A DNA stretch of 64,000 bases from Microbacterium sp. zg-Y1090 (GTDB lineage: Bacteria > Actinomycetota > Actinomycetes > Actinomycetales > Microbacteriaceae). Shown here one piece after another: positions 33,313 through 38,999 of this stretch (within the stretch, counting starts at the first letter, position 1; each line of letters opens with the position of its first letter). Location of the stretch: contig NZ_CP126742.1 of assembly GCF_030246945.1 (NCBI RefSeq), forward strand, positions 1,240,001 to 1,304,000, read 5' to 3'. The translations under genes and the position numbers were made by a program. The notes beneath the pieces were generated by a model. That model did not search any database, was not told the origin of the DNA, and saw only the letters and a program-made list of their open reading frames with translations.

Positions 33313-33367
33313 GGTCGTTGAGCGAGCGTGTTCCCCGGTCGTTGAGCGAGCGAAGCGAGACGAAACG
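33313..33367 (+). repeat. 31-bp dispersed repeat, site A (one truncated and one full copy)
   Basis: A truncated copy (33313-33328) and a full copy (33337-33367) of the repeat that begins GGTCGTTGAGCGAGCG and ends GAGACGAAACG lie between ychF and the GNAT gene. Confidence 0.9.
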
Positions 33368-33390
33368 CCCCGCTCGGAGAGGAGCGCACG

Positions 33391-33894
33391 GTGAGTGACG
33401 AAACCGCCCCGCGAGCCGACGGCAGGCACCGCCCCGCGTGGAAGGCGGCGCAGGACCACGCGGTCCCGGAGGACGTCGCCCGCCTGCTCGACAGGGTGCC
33501 GGAATGGTTCGGGCAACCGGAAGCGAACGCAGAGTACATCGAGGCGGCGCAGACCAAGGAGACCTGGACGGTACGTGACGCCGACGGCTCGGTGATCGGC
33601 GTCACTCTGGTGGACCGGCACTATCCGCACGTCGCGGAGATCCATCTCACCGTGGTCGATCGCGCGGCGCATGGCTCCGGCGTCGGAACGGCGATGCTCG
33701 CTGCGATCGAGGCCGACGCGGTCGGCCGAGGGGTTCGCCTCCTCGAGGTGAAGACGCTCGGTCCCTCGCACCCGGATGCCGGGTACGCGCTCACCCGGCG
33801 CTTCTACGAGAAGATGGGCTTCCTGCCCCTGGAGGAGACGGGCCTCTGGGGCGAGGGCACGCCGTGCCTGATCATGGTGAAGCCGCTCCGCTGA
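33391..33894 (+). CDS. GNAT family N-acetyltransferase
   Basis: A 167-residue acetyltransferase-fold protein. The acetyl-CoA loop is at DRAAHGSGVGTAML (V-x-x-x-x-G-x-G-x-G/A pattern, about residues 91-104), preceded by a beta strand EIHLTVV and followed by RRFYEKMGFLPLEE, typical of motif B. GGAGAGGAG lies before GTG 33391. The substrate is unknown. It sits between two copies of the 31-bp repeat. Confidence 0.88.
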   Translation: MSDETAPRADGRHRPAWKAAQDHAVPEDVARLLDRVPEWFGQPEANAEYIEAAQTKETWTVRDADGSVIGVTLVDRHYPHVAEIHLTVVDRAAHGSGVGTAMLAAIEADAVGRGVRLLEVKTLGPSHPDAGYALTRRFYEKMGFLPLEETGLWGEGTPCLIMVKPLR

Positions 33895-33911
33895 CGTTCT
33901 CCTCGCGTCTG

Positions 33912-33942
33912 GGTCGTTGAGCGAGCGAAGCGAGACGAAACG
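33912..33942 (+). repeat. 31-bp dispersed repeat, site B (full copy)
   Basis: A full copy 17 bases after the GNAT stop, identical in its core to the copy at 33337. Confidence 0.9.
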
Positions 33943-34024
33943 CGCCGCGACTCAGGCGTTGAGCGTCGTGAGGGGGCGGGAGTGACCCAGTGAGGGCTGC
34001 GCCACCACGCCGTCGAGGCCTGCG

Positions 34025-34855
34025 TCAACTGCCGAATACGCGAGTGTACAAGTCCACCGCGAACGGAACACCCACCGAGAGGATGGCGACGAGCAGGACG
34101 CCGCCCCAGAGCATCCGTATGCGTCTCGCCGACTCGACTTCGCGACGCAGTTCGCTGAACCTCTGCGCATCGACAAGCGGCTGAGGCTGCGATGACCATG
34201 TCGCCTCGTCGCGGACAACCGCCGTCACCGCCGTCAGCTTCGCCGGGTTGAGAAGCGGCTTTTGCTTCTTCAGCCACCGCAGGAGCTGGGGCGCCGCCAA
34301 CACCGCGACATCCTCCGGCTGCTCTCGAATCGTGATCTCCTTGGCGCCGACGATGACGATGGCTCCGCGCACGGGGACGTCGATGCCGGCCGCGGTCGAC
34401 AGCAGCTTGCGCGTTCTCTCAATCTCGTACCGCGTGTTGCGAAGATGGTCGGTCTTCTGACCATTGACCAGTAGCCGCCGGCTGCCCACCCAGATCCGCG
34501 CGCCCTCGTGGAGCTTCGTATTGATGGTGAACACGCCGGCGGCGCCGACGACAACGTGGTCGATGTCGCTGCCTCGGGTTCCGATGGGCACGGAGTGGAG
34601 AACGGCCCAGCCCTCGTCGAGCGACTCAAGGCGGGTTGCCGCGTCGAGTTCGCCCAGCGTTCCCAGATACCAGGAGCGCGAGTCCTCCGACAGGGGCGAT
34701 CTGCCGAAGCATCGGGCGAGGGCTGAGCGCGGATGCACCTGACTCTGAACGCTGAGGCACTCGGCCATCACGGATGCCGCGGCAACCGTCCCGAAGACCG
34801 GCGCAGCCGCAGGAGAGGAGTCCGGGGACAGCTGAGGGGCAGGTTCGGTCGTCAT
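34025..34855 (-). CDS. NERD domain protein with C-terminal membrane anchor
   Basis: A 276-residue protein. The NERD (nuclease-related) domain spans about residues 65-170; its core is RGSDIDHVVVGAAGVFTIN followed by Thr-Lys, matching the D...T-K nuclease-like motif. A C-terminal transmembrane helix (about 245-265) anchors it. The N-terminal 60 residues are low-complexity. NERD proteins are predicted nucleases with uncertain roles. ATG 34855 has TAGACT 7 bases upstream. It lies between repeat sites B and C. Confidence 0.85.
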   Translation of the reverse strand: MTTEPAPQLSPDSSPAAAPVFGTVAAASVMAECLSVQSQVHPRSALARCFGRSPLSEDSRSWYLGTLGELDAATRLESLDEGWAVLHSVPIGTRGSDIDHVVVGAAGVFTINTKLHEGARIWVGSRRLLVNGQKTDHLRNTRYEIERTRKLLSTAAGIDVPVRGAIVIVGAKEITIREQPEDVAVLAAPQLLRWLKKQKPLLNPAKLTAVTAVVRDEATWSSQPQPLVDAQRFSELRREVESARRIRMLWGGVLLVAILSVGVPFAVDLYTRVFGS

Positions 34856-34921
34856 CGAGTCGAGTCTAGGGAGCGCGGGGCGTACCGTTCCGCGCCGACG
34901 AGCGATACGCGCCGCCCGCCC

Positions 34922-34948
34922 GGTCGTTGAGCGACGGAGTTCTCCGTC
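34922..34948 (+). repeat. 31-bp dispersed repeat, site C (diverged copy merging into a hairpin)
   Basis: GGTCGTTGAGC (34922-34932) is followed by GACGGAGTTCTCCGTC, a perfect 7-bp palindrome with a 2-base centre, in place of the usual 3' half. It lies 12 bases beyond the VOC gene stop and could act as its terminator. Confidence 0.7.
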
Positions 34949-34960
34949 AATGTCCGACGA

Positions 34961-35362
34961 TCAGGCAGCGGAACCCTTCATCATCGCGAGCTGGATGAGG
35001 TTGCCGCATGTGTCGTCGAAGACGGCGACGGCCACGTTTCCGTAGTCCGTCACGTCTTGCGTGAATCTCACGCCGAGCTCCTTCATGCGCGCGACTTCCC
35101 TGTCGATGTCGTCGACGGCGAACTGCGTGAACGGGATGCCGTCCTCGACCAGAGCGGCCTTGAACGCCTTTGCGGCGGGGTGCTGATCGGGTTCGAGCAG
35201 CACCTGGACGCCGTTCGGATCGGCGGGGCTGCTCACCGTCAGCCAGCGGTACTCGCCGGTCGGCACATCGACCTGTTTCATGAAGCCGAGCTTCTCGGTG
35301 TAGAAATCGAGCGCCTTCGACTGCTCGTCAACGTAGACGCTGGTCGTCGTGATGCGGATCAT
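34961..35362 (-). CDS. VOC (glyoxalase/bleomycin resistance) family protein
   Basis: A 133-residue two-module VOC protein. The first module has SVYVDEQSKALDFYTEKLGF, the second PFTQFAVDDIDREVARMKE and VAVFDDTCGNLIQL, which places a metal-ligand Glu/Asp-type end near the C-terminus. Its ATG overlaps the ArsR stop by ATGA, so regulator and VOC protein are made together. Function may be binding or conversion of a small molecule; the substrate is unknown. Confidence 0.9.
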   Translation of the reverse strand: MIRITTTSVYVDEQSKALDFYTEKLGFMKQVDVPTGEYRWLTVSSPADPNGVQVLLEPDQHPAAKAFKAALVEDGIPFTQFAVDDIDREVARMKELGVRFTQDVTDYGNVAVAVFDDTCGNLIQLAMMKGSAA

Positions 35363-35649
35363 GATGCGGATTCCTTTCGCTGCCACCGCGCGGCGATCGC
35401 CGCGAGTGGTTCGGTGTGGAGGTCATGGAACTTGTATCGGCCCTCGCGGCGCGTGCGGATGAGGCCCGCGGATTCGAGGACCTCGAGGTGCTGTGACACG
35501 GCCTGGCGGGATGAGGTCACCCCGTGCTTCATGGTGAGTCGCCCGCAGATCTCGAAGAGCGTCTGGCCGTCGCGATCGACGAGCTCGTCCAGGATCAGTC
35601 GGCGCGTCGCATCCGAAAGCGCCCGATAGAGTTCTGCGTCCTGATCCAC
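35359..35649 (-). CDS. ArsR-type winged-helix regulator
   Basis: A 96-residue winged-helix repressor. The fold is recognisable from LYRALSDATRRLILDELVD, the recognition helix region TSSRQAVSQHLEVLESAGL and the wing IRTRREGRYKFHDL. No paired-cysteine metal site (CxC) is present, so it probably senses something other than arsenite. GTG 35649 is preceded by a complete promoter with an operator-like palindrome, suggesting self-regulation of this gene and the coupled VOC gene. Confidence 0.92.
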   Translation of the reverse strand: MDQDAELYRALSDATRRLILDELVDRDGQTLFEICGRLTMKHGVTSSRQAVSQHLEVLESAGLIRTRREGRYKFHDLHTEPLAAIAARWQRKESAS

Positions 35650-35655
35650 GCGCCC

Positions 35656-35685
35656 ACGTTATGCAAGTATCCACTTGCCTGTCAA
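35656..35685 (-). promoter_or_regulatory. Promoter and operator of the ArsR-VOC operon
   Basis: On the minus strand TTGACA (35685-35680) and TAACGT (35661-35656) are 18 bases apart. The spacer holds GCAAGT-GGAT-ACTTGC (35678-35663), a perfect inverted repeat. TAACGT ends 6 bases before GTG 35649, so the transcript is probably leaderless. Confidence 0.8.
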
Positions 35686-35691
35686 CGGCCC

Positions 35692-35764
35692 GGTCGTTGA
35701 GCGAGCGCAGCGAGACGAAACGGCCGCAACACGGGTCGTTGAGCGAGCGCAGCGAGACGAAACG
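35692..35764 (+). repeat. 31-bp dispersed repeat, site D (two full copies)
   Basis: Full copies at 35692-35722 and 35734-35764 both have C instead of A in the middle (GCGAGCGCAGCGAG). They lie between the ArsR promoter and the 3' end of the S51 peptidase gene. Confidence 0.9.
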
Positions 35765-35772
35765 CTCGGGAC

Positions 35773-36432
35773 TCATCCGAGCCGCGCCCAGCGCCCCTCC
35801 GAGATGACGTCGATCGTCCCATCCACGACGCGGACCGCGGTCTCGTCATCCATGACATACGCGGGGATGCCGATCTGTGCCGCCCAGCGCTCCGCGGCAT
35901 CCATCGTGTTCGTGGGGAAGACGTCGAGGTGCGGGAAGATCGCGAAGTCGACGACCCCGAGGGTCGTGTCGTCCGGCGCCGACGGCCACTCGACGAAGTA
36001 GTCGCCGATGCGCGGGGTCAGCACCATGCTGCCCGCGCTCACCCCCACCCACACGGTGTCGGTGAGTGACGGGAGCGAGTCGGCCAGCCCGGACGCCCGC
36101 ATCCAGTGCGCGAGGTAGGTCGCCTCGCCGCCGTCGACGAGGAGGACATCGGCGTCGCCCACCCACCCCTGCCAGCGCTCCGGCGCGATGGTGGGCAGCG
36201 CGGTGAGTTCCAGAAGGCCGATCGACTTCCAAGGGAGCGAGGTCATCCCGCCCGATGGCGGCAGACCGCTGACGAAGCGGCGCGCCGAGACGGGACCGCA
36301 CAGCGGATGGCCCCATTGGGCGGTGGGGATGCAGAGGGCGGACGCCTCCTCGATGTCGGTGCCGAGCATCTCGAGGAGCGCAGCGCGGATGCTGTCGTTG
36401 GTGATGCCGCCAGACGTGAGGAGAAGCTTCAT
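35773..36432 (-). CDS. Peptidase S51-like (Type 1 glutamine amidotransferase-like) protein
   Basis: A 219-residue protein of the dipeptidase E/cyanophycinase fold. The nucleophile Ser is in VWVGVSAGSMVL (about residue 128), preceded by VDGGEATYLAHWM, which marks the beta-strand with the G-G-x-T/S loop. ATG 36432 has no clear ribosome-binding site. Family enzymes cleave Asp-X dipeptides or related bonds; the specificity here is unknown. Confidence 0.85.
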   Translation of the reverse strand: MKLLLTSGGITNDSIRAALLEMLGTDIEEASALCIPTAQWGHPLCGPVSARRFVSGLPPSGGMTSLPWKSIGLLELTALPTIAPERWQGWVGDADVLLVDGGEATYLAHWMRASGLADSLPSLTDTVWVGVSAGSMVLTPRIGDYFVEWPSAPDDTTLGVVDFAIFPHLDVFPTNTMDAAERWAAQIGIPAYVMDDETAVRVVDGTIDVISEGRWARLG

Positions 36433-36532
36433 CGTGCCCCCGGAGGTGAGAGGTGGGTGCGCTGATGCTACGTCCCCCTCGCAGGGCGCGCCCAGACCCT
36501 GCCGCGTTCGCGCGCCGTGGGACGATGGCGGT

Positions 36533-37222
36533 ATGGCTTTGCACTTGCTCACCGGCGCCGGCTCCGGCATCGGCGCCGCCCTCGCCGCGCGCCTGCAGGC
36601 ACGTGGCGACGATCTCATCCTGCTCGCGCGCAGCGACGCCCGTGCGGCGGAGCTGCGGGAACGGTTTCCCGGTGCTCAGACGATCGTCGCCGACTTGGCG
36701 GCGCCGGGCGAGCTTGCCGCGGCGCTCACGCGGCACGACCTCCCCGGCCGCCTGGACTCGCTGCTCCACGTCGCGGGCGTGGTCGACCTGGGCCAGGTGG
36801 CCGAGCTCACCGTCGCGAAGTGGGCATCGCAGCTCGACGTGAACCTCGTCGCGCCGGCTGAGCTGACCCGGCTGCTGCTGCCGGCGCTGCGCGCGGCGAA
36901 GGGCCAGGTGGTGTTCGTCAACTCCGGCGCCGGACTGCGTGCGGCGCCCGACTGGGCGGCCTACGCGGCATCCAAGCACGGACTTAAGGCGCTCGCCGAC
37001 AGCCTGCGCGCCGAGGAGTCGCCGCACGGCGTGCGGGTGTCGTCGGTGTATCCCGGGCGCACCGCCACGGCGATGCAGGAGCGCGTGCACGAGCAGGAAG
37101 GACGCGATTACGACCCGGCCGGCTTCATCGATGCGGACTCGGTCGTCACGAGCATCCTCACCGTGCTGGACCTGCCTCGCGACGCGCAGATCCCCGACCT
37201 GACGATCCGACCGGGCGTCTGA
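36533..37222 (+). CDS. Short-chain dehydrogenase/reductase
   Basis: A 229-residue classical SDR. The cofactor loop is TGAGSGIGAALA (about residues 7-18), the Ser of the catalytic triad is in FVNSGAGLR, and the Tyr/Lys pair is in YAASKHGLKALAD. LARSDARAAEL after the second strand, with Arg residues, suggests NADP(H). GACGAT lies 6 bases before ATG 36533. The substrate is unknown; an alpha/beta hydrolase gene follows at a 42-base gap. Confidence 0.93.
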   Translation: MALHLLTGAGSGIGAALAARLQARGDDLILLARSDARAAELRERFPGAQTIVADLAAPGELAAALTRHDLPGRLDSLLHVAGVVDLGQVAELTVAKWASQLDVNLVAPAELTRLLLPALRAAKGQVVFVNSGAGLRAAPDWAAYAASKHGLKALADSLRAEESPHGVRVSSVYPGRTATAMQERVHEQEGRDYDPAGFIDADSVVTSILTVLDLPRDAQIPDLTIRPGV

Positions 37223-37264
37223 CGGGAGTGGGCGGGTCCAGGCTCCGGGGGTCATGATGTATTC

Positions 37265-38134
37265 ATGTCAGTGACCGCACTCACGGTGCCGCGGCCCCCG
37301 CACGTCGTCCGGCTCGGCAGCGGAACCCCAGTGGTGTTCGTGCACGGCAACGGCGTGGATCACCGGATGATGCTGGCGCTGGATGCCGCCTTCGACGAGT
37401 CCGGGCTGTGGGAACGCATCTACCTCGATCTGCCCGGGTTCGGTGCGACGCCGGCGCTGGATGCCCCAGGTGGATTGTCCCAGCTCGCCGACTGGCTCGA
37501 TGAGGCAGTAGGCGGATTGCTCGGCTCCACGCCGTTCGCCGTGGTGGGCGCGTCGCTCGGCGGCCTGCTCGCCCGCGATCTGGTCGCGCGTCGGCCCGAC
37601 CAGTGCCTCGGCATGGCGCTGCTGGCTCCTGTCGTGGACTCGGTGCGCGAGAACCGATTGGTCCCACCGCACGCCGTTCTGGTCGAGGACGCCGCGCTCG
37701 TCGCCGGGTTGAGCGCCGCCGATGCCGAGGCCTACACCGAGTTGGCCGTCGTGCAGTCCCGGGAGAACTGGGAACGCTTCCGACGGTCGGTGCTCCCCGG
37801 CCTGCAGAGCGCCGACGTGCGCGCCATGGCGCGCCTGGCGAAGGACTACGCCCTGCCCGCGCTACCCGACGATCACCTCGCCGGCTTCGATCGTCCGGTG
37901 CTGATGCTGACCGGTCGTCAGGACGCCGTGGTCGGCTATGAGGATCAGTGGGCGCTCGCGCAGCGCTTCCCCCGTGCGACGTATGCCGTGCTCGACGGGG
38001 CCGGCCACAACCTGGAGAACGATCAGCCCGACCTCGTGCAGGCGCACCTGGCCCGGTGGGCGCAGCAGATGACGGAGTACGCGACGGCCGACCGTGCACA
38101 CCGGCGGTCGGGCGCTCGCCCCGAGCAGTCCTGA
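37265..38134 (+). CDS. Alpha/beta hydrolase
   Basis: A 289-residue hydrolase. The oxyanion region is VFVHGNGVDH, the nucleophile elbow VVGASLGGLLARDL (Ser about residue 97), the acid probably Asp in TGRQDAVVGYE, and the His in DGAGHNLENDQP. A helical cap lies between (about 125-195). The last 15 residues are basic and disordered. CATGAT lies 6 bases before ATG 37265. The gene ends 3 bases before the next start. Confidence 0.92.
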   Translation: MSVTALTVPRPPHVVRLGSGTPVVFVHGNGVDHRMMLALDAAFDESGLWERIYLDLPGFGATPALDAPGGLSQLADWLDEAVGGLLGSTPFAVVGASLGGLLARDLVARRPDQCLGMALLAPVVDSVRENRLVPPHAVLVEDAALVAGLSAADAEAYTELAVVQSRENWERFRRSVLPGLQSADVRAMARLAKDYALPALPDDHLAGFDRPVLMLTGRQDAVVGYEDQWALAQRFPRATYAVLDGAGHNLENDQPDLVQAHLARWAQQMTEYATADRAHRRSGARPEQS

Positions 38135-38137
38135 GCC

Positions 38138-38719
38138 ATGCCCTTCACCCTCGCCGCGCCCGTTCACAGTGAGTTCGTCATCAAGAAGAGCCGCTTTCTG
38201 GGGTGCGTCGAGCCGGTCGCGGGACGTGAAGCTGCCGTCGCGCGGGTGCAGGAGCTGTGGGCCGAGCATCCGGACGCCCGTCACATCTGCTGGGCGCTGA
38301 TGGCCGGCGGCCACTCCGCCGCCAACGACGACGGCGAGCCGAGCGGCACCGCGGGCCGCCCCATGCTCGAGGTGCTGCGGCACCAGGAGCTCGAGGGAGT
38401 GCTCGCCACCGTGGTGCGGTACTTCGGCGGCGTGAAGCTGGGTGCGGGAGGGCTCGTCCGCGCATACACGGATGCCGTGGCGCAGGCGCTCCTCGGTGCC
38501 GAGCGCGTGCCGCTCATCCGCACGCGGATGCTGCGCGTCTCGGTGCCCTACGCGCAGGAGGGCGCCGTGCGCCGCGAGCTCGAGGTCGCCGGCGCGGAGC
38601 TCGGAGAGGCCAGCCACGGGGTCGAGGTCGAGCTGAGCTTCGCCGTGCCCGAGGATCGCGCCGGTGACCTGGCCGCGCGCGTGGACGACATCTGCCAGGG
38701 TCGCGCGGTCTGGCACTGA
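38138..38719 (+). CDS. YigZ/IMPACT family protein
   Basis: A 193-residue protein of the UPF0029/IMPACT family. The N-terminal domain has FVIKKSRFLG and DDGEPSGTAGRPML, and the family signature is VRYFGGVKLGAGGLVRAY (about residues 91-108). A C-terminal ferredoxin-like DUF1949 domain follows. Family members bind RNA or ribosome-associated factors; the bacterial role is unclear. It begins 3 bases after the hydrolase stop, so it is in the same operon. Confidence 0.94.
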   Translation: MPFTLAAPVHSEFVIKKSRFLGCVEPVAGREAAVARVQELWAEHPDARHICWALMAGGHSAANDDGEPSGTAGRPMLEVLRHQELEGVLATVVRYFGGVKLGAGGLVRAYTDAVAQALLGAERVPLIRTRMLRVSVPYAQEGAVRRELEVAGAELGEASHGVEVELSFAVPEDRAGDLAARVDDICQGRAVWH

Positions 38720-38766
38720 ACGCCGCTGTGGTCCGGGTCGCCCCTGTGGTGGCGTAGACTGATTCT

Positions 38767-38829
38767 CGATAGGCGGATTTCTCATCCGTCTCGCCCCGGC
38801 CGCGTGGTAACGGTCGGGGCTTTCTCTTT
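38767..38829 (+). ncRNA. Candidate two-hairpin small RNA
   Basis: TAGACT (38755-38760) could be a -10 element for a start near 38767. The region then holds a 7-bp hairpin (38772-38778 with 38784-38790, loop TTCTC, one G-T pair) and a 9-bp GC hairpin (38794-38802 with 38811-38819, loop of 8), followed by CTTTCTCTTT, which is a canonical intrinsic-terminator ending. No ORF fits. It could alternatively be only the terminator of the upstream operon. The rest of this 311-base gap is the repeat cluster at 38853-38999. Confidence 0.5.
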
Positions 38830-38852
38830 GCCCGGGGCCGGCCTGCCGGCAT

Positions 38853-38999
38853 GGACACCGCGTTTCGTCTCGCTTCGCTCGCTCAACGACCGAGGGGGTG
38901 CTCGCTCAACGACCGAGGGCCTGCCCGCACGGACACCGCGTTTCGTCTCGCTTCGCTCGCTCAACGACCGAAGGGGTGCCCGCTCAACGACCGAGGGGC
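38853..38999 (-). repeat. 31-bp dispersed repeat, site E: 78-bp tandem duplication in inverted orientation
   Basis: Full inverted copies at 38861-38891 and 38939-38969 and truncated ones at 38901-38914 and 38981-38992 form two successive 78-bp units (GGACACCGCG, full copy, truncated copy). Orientation is opposite to sites A-D. Confidence 0.9.

Follow-up and report, generated by a model that had tools for sequence, protein, structure and literature searches.

A REP-like family of intergenic DNA elements in Microbacterium lies beside a small GIY-YIG nuclease gene

Introduction

Repetitive extragenic palindromic (REP) sequences and BIMEs are described, in the available part of the source, as imperfect hairpins of 20-40 bp with a tag at one end, which lie in intergenic regions near the 3' ends of genes, are rare between divergent genes, form clusters of mixed orientation and flank an enzyme gene (PMC3733652). 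The phyla named there for REP sequences and their RAYT transposases do not include Actinobacteria, and the REP sequences tagged CGTC are said in the same part to have no known transposase (PMC3733652). Here we report on a REP-like family of short elements in Microbacterium sp. zg-Y1090, noticed in a stretch of 64,000 nucleotides, hereafter the window (G000:C1:1240001-1304000, on contig NZ_CP126742.1, the single contig of a 3.07-Mb genome). This element and a small GIY-YIG nuclease gene, here called giyA, co-occur and stand side by side, and we consider it probable that the family is one of intergenic DNA hairpins functionally tied to the nuclease.

Results

The exact 16-base 5' end of the element is present 71 times in the zg-Y1090 genome (26 copies on the + strand and 45 on the - strand), and the same pattern read backwards is absent; the exact 14-mer of the 3' end is present 70 times, and the copies are grouped in 20 to 25 clusters. 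With the contig start placed at dnaA by reading and the terminus assumed to lie opposite, the 71 exact copies divide into 40 on the lagging-strand template and 31 on the opposite one, which shows no clear orientation bias with respect to replication. Among the matches listed for the exact 31-mer, 117 of 120 loci belong to Microbacterium by record title, and the remaining three are one Actinomycetota metagenome-assembled genome and two contigs of Actinomycetales SN12. Of the 119 Microbacterium genomes sampled, 64 carry one exact copy or more, with a range of 0-210 per genome. When one mismatch was allowed in a scan of 199 genomes of the family, other genera reached at most 4 matches and the reversed control at most 3; at the level of the phylum, 4 of 396 genomes matched, two of them inside Microbacterium and two with a single match; and the centre GAGCGAGCGNAGCGAG, searched in 297 genomes of the order, occurred at most three times outside Microbacterium, equal to the control. 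Because the high counts in Microbacterium stand against background levels in the family, phylum and order scans, the repeat family is genus-restricted, and it is patchy within the genus. Phages gave no match to the element; among plasmids it matched a Microbacterium record of 465 kb (E 0.05) and, at E 0.2-0.6, four further records.

The giyA gene (G000:C1:1592692-1592982, +) has 97 codons; it is not in the window, and element clusters stand on both sides of it in the region 1592.4-1593.8 kb. It was found by reading the locus (L042) and then by tblastn, which over the collected loci located it in three further named loci at 38-49 bp from an element; a search of the genus gave matches in 53 of the 119 genomes. 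Adjacency was measured at 50 GIY-YIG loci, the 30 best and 20 weaker matches. At all 27 top-scoring loci (at least 127 bits, the zg-Y1090 gene included) an element end lies no more than 202 bp upstream, and at 24 of them element ends lie less than 200 bp away on both sides; none of the 23 lower-ranked loci has an element end within 200 bp. At 12 of the 27, the nearest element on each side points inward, so that element orientation at giyA is not fixed, and in 7 of the 27 the stop codon of the gene is the TGA of an element. At nine of the 27 loci (G032, G064 and G066 among them) the copies beside giyA are variants lacking the exact 16-mer; it therefore seems that forms differ from species to species. 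Beside giyA in G066 (L266) stands a longer, composite repeat in which the two element ends enclose a different inner stretch. The zg-Y1090 locus also holds a second small gene, giyB (L042:2094-2477, minus strand), which encodes 128 aa with a YVGAT stretch and had no match in Pfam and none by tblastn in the other loci compared.

The number of copies in a genome follows the presence of the gene. The 33 genomes with giyA (at least 110 bits) have a median of 27 exact copies, one of them having zero, and the 86 genomes without it at this cut-off have a median of 0, with 54 at zero; ten or more copies were counted in 23 of the 33 against 9 of the 86. Each of the 15 genomes with 32 or more exact copies has a match of at least 130 bits, including G014, where giyA is interrupted by two stops. 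In a phylogenetic tree, from which the G014 locus (L271, with stops inside giyA) was left out as too short, the flanked genes fall into one clade of 30 (support 96/97) made of 26 flanked and four unflanked genes, and three label changes are needed. By nucleotide similarity of their outer flanks, the 30 giyA loci form 21 context groups; so far as this test can tell, then, the unit of giyA and elements does not keep to a single location.

GiyA matches Pfam PF01541 (E 1.3e-17), and its only NCBIfam match, below the cut-off, is to group I intron endonucleases. Its relatives in the PDB by sequence are 1zg2 and 1ywl. The predicted structure (pLDDT 92, pTM 0.79) has as its best PDB match the UPF0213 protein 1zg2 (E 2.4e-5), followed by HIGLE (1e-3), 1ywl (7e-3) and Slx1 (0.01-0.1). 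All of 30 homologues picked from the best 120 of 543 have residues Y5, Y15, R25, H29 and E62, and nearly all named homologues among these best 120 are from Microbacterium, with one from Streptomyces sp. AC495_CC817. GiyA is predicted to be a nuclease of a structure-selective lineage (Slx1/UPF0213).

Each unit of the element starts with (C)GGTCGTTGAGCGA and ends with GAGACGAAACG, the middle being variable. The most frequent middle is GC-GNA-GC; longer ones add GG-GA...GA-CC, G-GA...GA-C or GC-GA...GA-GC steps, and others are plain stems (GGGCGC/GCGCCC, CGAC/GTCG, CCGGC/GCCGG). A tag, GGTC, stands immediately 5' of GTTGAGC in 226 of 245 units, a count biased by the choice of most loci through the exact GGTC pattern; in G034, where the remainder is largely conserved, the tag is GYTC and the base predicted to bulge is usually T, with C in a single case. 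We interpret the unit as a hairpin specific to the G/A strand, in which Watson-Crick steps alternate with tandem 5'-GA-3'/5'-GA-3' steps under a three-base loop. When single-stranded, the G/A-rich strand would fold as GTT.GA.GC.GA.GC[GNA]GC.GA.GxC.GA.AAC, where x is a bulged base and the tandem G.A pairs are sheared. Of the 370 arm positions in 61 distinct long centres, 324 pair (266 Watson-Crick and 58 G.A); redealing the right arms within each length class (5000 deals) gave 269 +/- 7 paired positions and a maximum of 300 (p <= 0.0002, in a test that takes no account of relatedness between centre variants). The loop is GNA in 54 of the 61, and the free loop base of the short form is A in 107, C in 69, G in 26 and T in 1 loci, some of these overlapping. 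GNA and GNNA loops closed by at least two G-C pairs give extraordinarily stable DNA mini-hairpins, GCGAAGC having a melting temperature of 78 C, according to the text available (PMC4686876). The scarcity of T in the loop agrees with the greater stability of GAA, which the available part of another source cites as 6 C above that of GTA (PMC6479982).

The loci of the zg-Y1090 genome hold 111 five-prime ends, 83 of them in full units, and neighbours less than 120 bp apart are arranged head-to-tail (51), 3'-to-3' (22) or 5'-to-5' (11). Clusters were assigned to gaps by simple ORF (open reading frame) calling, with edge and in-ORF clusters set apart: the 25 clusters of zg-Y1090 lie in 13 tandem, 8 convergent and 1 divergent gaps, with 2 inside a called ORF and 1 at an edge, and the 143 of the named loci in 54 tandem, 31 convergent and 11 divergent gaps, with 25 inside a called ORF and 22 at an edge, some of the in-ORF cases being possibly false gene calls. 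Clusters are under-represented in divergent gaps, which hold 11 of the 96 classified clusters but make up 94 of the 399 gaps of at least 60 bp at the same loci. The first element of a cluster follows the gene's own stop in 22 of 31 cases in zg-Y1090 and 65 of 99 in the named loci, at no more than 30 bp from that stop in 14 of the 22 and 36 of the 65. Orientation relative to the gene is loose, with 65 elements pointing away and 51 toward in the named loci, and 21 and 8 in zg-Y1090. The family thus has the features of REP/BIME repeats in the broad sense, namely a short imperfect palindrome, high copy number, intergenic location and clusters of mixed orientation, the palindrome resting on comparison.

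The element's own GGTCGTTGA serves as gene stop (Gly-Arg-stop) in 5 of 31 cases in zg-Y1090 and 10 of 99 in the named loci, and the others are read through in another frame; use of the element TGA as a gene stop was rejected as an insertion rule, being confined to this minority. By reading, the short unit has a stop in one of six frames only, and some predicted ORFs (e.g., at L070, L094 and L142) end in element-encoded tails such as VVERAKRDET and SLSERSETK.

A comparison of relatives showed that elements are gained, lost and locally amplified. Six further sites, A to F, were compared by anchored sequence comparison, not each in every relative. At site A, an array of 557 bp is present in zg-Y1090 and none in G031, G067, G025 and G008. 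Site B is occupied in zg-Y1090 and G031, with a degenerate remnant in G025 and none in G067 and G008. At site C, eleven 5' ends in zg-Y1090 compare with one and a half units in G031, a degenerate half-unit in G025 and none in G067. Site D has one full and two partial units here and none in G031 and G025; site E has three here and one in G031, and is empty in G067 and G025, which differ in the sequence upstream; and at site F zg-Y1090 has a tandem row of four short units, where G025 has two inverted units of a different form and G031 has none. No clear case of target duplication was seen by eye at the sites compared in detail. At site C of G067 (L232), which has no unit, a hairpin stands right after the gene, with arms GACGAAACG/CGTTTCGTC that resemble the 3' end of the element; this may be chance or a remnant.

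G031 shares the order of genes across the 20 kb that hold sites A, B and C. The preliminary description of the window repeats took them to partition an accessory region into gene cassettes; gene order being kept with and without arrays at these three sites argues against cassettes. The stretch after ychF bears on the same question. The nearest sampled relatives by window query are G031, G067 and G025 (94%, 90% and 87% identity at ychF). The ychF loci of 28 relatives (L172-L199) were collected, of which 25 were readable and three lacked the anchor, and an element follows the ychF stop in one of the 25 (G092). The gap from ychF to the SDR gene is about 3.2 kb here, and about 0.66 kb in G067, 8.2 kb in G031 and 12.6 kb in G025. 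It holds no element units in these three genomes, isolated 8-mers being seen in G031 only, and the GNAT, NERD, VOC and regulator genes of the window had no tblastn match at 1e-8 in the syntenic stretches of the three (the S51-like gene was outside the query set). Gene content is thus variable here, as had been supposed, and it varies without element units in the three nearest relatives.

In the window, the copies are those first described, six full and four partial units at 33.3-39.0 kb, all intergenic as judged from ORFs and from neighbours confirmed by Pfam. A partial unit (5' half) at 33313..33328 (+) lies directly 3' of the ychF stop (33305) and precedes a full short unit with a GAA loop at 33337..33367 (+). 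Another full short unit with a GAA loop (33912..33942, +) stands 3' of the stop of the GNAT gene (33894), and a partial unit limited to the 5' end (34922..34935, +) lies in the gap that separates the NERD start from the VOC gene's 3' end. Two full short units with GCA loops follow at 35692..35722 (+) and 35734..35764 (+), the latter adjoining the 3' end of the S51-like ORF (35773, minus strand). The last four are on the minus strand: a full short unit with a GAA loop at 38861..38891, inside a 78-bp tandem duplication (38840-38995; repeat family D3), a 5' half at 38899..38914, a full short unit with a GAA loop in the second copy of the duplication (38939..38969) and a 5' half at 38977..38992. 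The 16-base 5' end with up to 3 mismatches matches the window 12 times, 10 of the matches being these units, and 100 shuffles gave a mean of 3.2 (sd 1.8, largest 8). Pfam confirms ychF, GNAT, NERD, glyoxalase/VOC, winged-helix regulator, SDR, alpha/beta hydrolase and IMPACT/UPF0029 genes around the copies, the S51-like gene being identified as an ORF only; Rfam and a tRNA scan gave no match in the window. The statement that the element occurs nowhere else is right for the window and wrong for the genome, and the 31-bp form exists as one of several lengths, a 39-bp form among them.

A search for Y1_Tnp, which matched 5 of 14 control genomes including E. coli, found none in the zg-Y1090 genome and one in the 119 Microbacterium genomes (L049:1501-1863, in G041), which has no exact element copies. 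ORF clustering of 98 loci gave no transposase-like recurrent neighbour, the nuclease gene being missed by that clustering. Of the earlier interpretation, then, neither a RAYT-type transposase nor the cassettes are supported, and the idea of a short mobilised element that leaves its footprint holds in so far as copies are gained, lost and amplified from one relative to another.

Outside the genus, 22 plasmid records had a GIY-YIG match, and flanks were compared in 10 of them. In Methylobacterium bullatum (NZ_LR743510.1; L298:1100-1650), the GIY-YIG gene lies between inverted copies of a palindromic repeat, CCTCATCCTGAGG, which is unrelated to the Microbacterium element and has GNA/GNNA loops (GTA, GGTA and GAA in three copies, by reading). 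The flanks of the gene share an inverted word of 17, shuffles reaching up to 13, and a looser search placed the repeat at 40 or more positions on the replicon.

Discussion

Because the repeat adjoins giyA, we suggest that the nuclease acts on the repeat. GiyA would recognise the folded G/A strand and cleave that strand, and host repair of the cut could copy elements to new sites and keep the arrays, or the cutting could limit the exchange of single-stranded DNA. Homing endonucleases spread introns by repair of the cut, and provide a model for a homing-like spread of elements. We propose tentatively, as a possibility on which we would not yet rely, that GiyA is the engine of element spread, cutting a minihairpin with a GNA loop and tandem sheared G.A pairs to drive a homing-like spread and upkeep of as many as hundreds of intergenic elements; the pair would then be a second kind of REP system, with a GIY-YIG enzyme of the Slx1/UPF0213 lineage instead of the HUH RAYT. 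The Methylobacterium parallel, in which the repeat is unrelated, suggests by analogy that, in REP families without a RAYT, the missing enzyme may be a GIY-YIG protein.

Several points weigh against a functional tie of this kind. We know of no strand-joining activity among GIY-YIG enzymes, so that element copying would need host repair. The association of giyA presence with copy number (Mann-Whitney p = 8e-14) was computed in a way that ignores the kinship of the genomes, and exact-match counts can miss variant families. Nine genomes carry 12-31 copies without giyA at 110 bits (G038, G094, G022, G080, G065, G110, G051, G116 and G106), G089 has a homologue and no copies, and G087 and G083 have homologues without elements nearby. 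As to the fold, the 20-base centre class taken alone gives no contrast (0.65 vs 0.64 Watson-Crick), ViennaRNA finds the short DNA form no more stable than shuffled sequences (z = 0.64) and ranks a different hairpin above the proposed fold of the long form; its parameters may lack the special GNA loop. The inner stem is thus supported by comparison, through covariation, and not by energy folding. In M. bullatum, a 100 kb sample of the replicon has the exact core only in the three copies at the gene, and the other nine plasmid loci compared have no clear flanking repeats (1 of 10 clear).

The nuclease might also read the repeats and not spread them. Cut sites on incoming or displaced single strands would then gate natural transformation or recombination, as reported for Ssn and its NTS targets in Neisseria, and the elements would spread by recombination and slippage. 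The same adjacency and copy-number data fit this gating, GIY-YIG enzymes are nucleases and not transposases, and the arrays show tandem amplification; however, the presence of giyA and elements in 21 context groups among 30 loci suggests that the unit moves, with the qualification that nucleotide divergence could hide shared contexts. We regard gating as possible and, on balance, unlikely. That the elements act in RNA, as mRNA 3'-end hairpins for termination or message protection, would agree with their position close 3' of stop codons and with the under-representation of divergent gaps, but the loose orientation relative to the gene, the lack of a T-run and the three-base GNA loop, to our knowledge a loop of DNA rather than RNA, all speak against it, and the nuclease partner would be left unexplained; we find it improbable. 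A shuffling of genes in and out by repeat-repeat recombination could draw on the window genes that have no tblastn match in the three syntenic stretches, yet the same relatives differ in the genes of this interval without element units and sites A, B and C keep their order with or without arrays, which leaves cassette boundaries very improbable. Finally, classical REP sequences that owe their spread to a RAYT (Y1 HUH) transposase since lost would account for the REP/BIME-like architecture (5' tag, imperfect hairpin, mixed orientation) and are scarcely credible given the single Y1_Tnp genome of 119, itself devoid of exact copies, and a tag of GGTC, not GTAG or CGTC.

REP-like repeats are widespread in bacteria, and there are RAYT-less families without a known engine, as the available text says of the CGTC repeats (PMC3733652). 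To return to the nuclease and its repeat, copy number that follows an adjacent GIY-YIG gene over 119 genomes offers a testable partner for such repeats, and the predicted structure (GNA loop, tandem G.A, bulge, one strand only) is specific enough for oligonucleotide testing. If it is true that the pair acts on single-stranded DNA, this would bear on how intergenic sites shape gene exchange. In the literature, no text among the matches listed joined GIY-YIG with "repetitive extragenic palindromic" and none was found that joined it with "REP elements"; matches to "REPIN" with Microbacterium, and to one 13-mer of the element, were unrelated by title.

Comparison with known systems places the family as follows. 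Integron attC sites are likewise folded single-strand sites between genes, and the element's GTTGAGC fits GTTRRRY; however, the core boxes are inside-out relative to the order RYYYAAC...GTTRRRY, with GTTGAGC toward the 5' end and CGAAAC at the 3' end, by reading, and the elements are also found at collinear loci. The closest system known to us is Ssn of Neisseria, reportedly a site-specific single-strand GIY-YIG nuclease that has repeated NTS targets and limits single-strand exchange. Like it, GiyA is a small single-domain GIY-YIG protein that accompanies a short repeat in tens to hundreds of copies, whereas the phylum is another and the putative target here has an unrelated sequence and a predicted GNA hairpin. 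The CGTC-tagged REP sequences resemble the family as high-copy intergenic palindromes near 3' ends with no RAYT partner, but differ in tag, stem and tail, are mostly from alphaproteobacteria and have no GIY-YIG partner mentioned in the available part of the source (PMC3733652). In architecture the family resembles REP/BIME/REPIN sequences with RAYT (TnpA-REP), as described in the text available, which share the size, the hairpin, the tag at one end, the 3'-end location, the mixed clusters and the flanked enzyme gene; in contrast to these, the Microbacterium family goes without a Y1 transposase, the gene that it flanks is a GIY-YIG gene, its tag is GGTC and its predicted hairpin carries a GNA loop and tandem G.A pairs.

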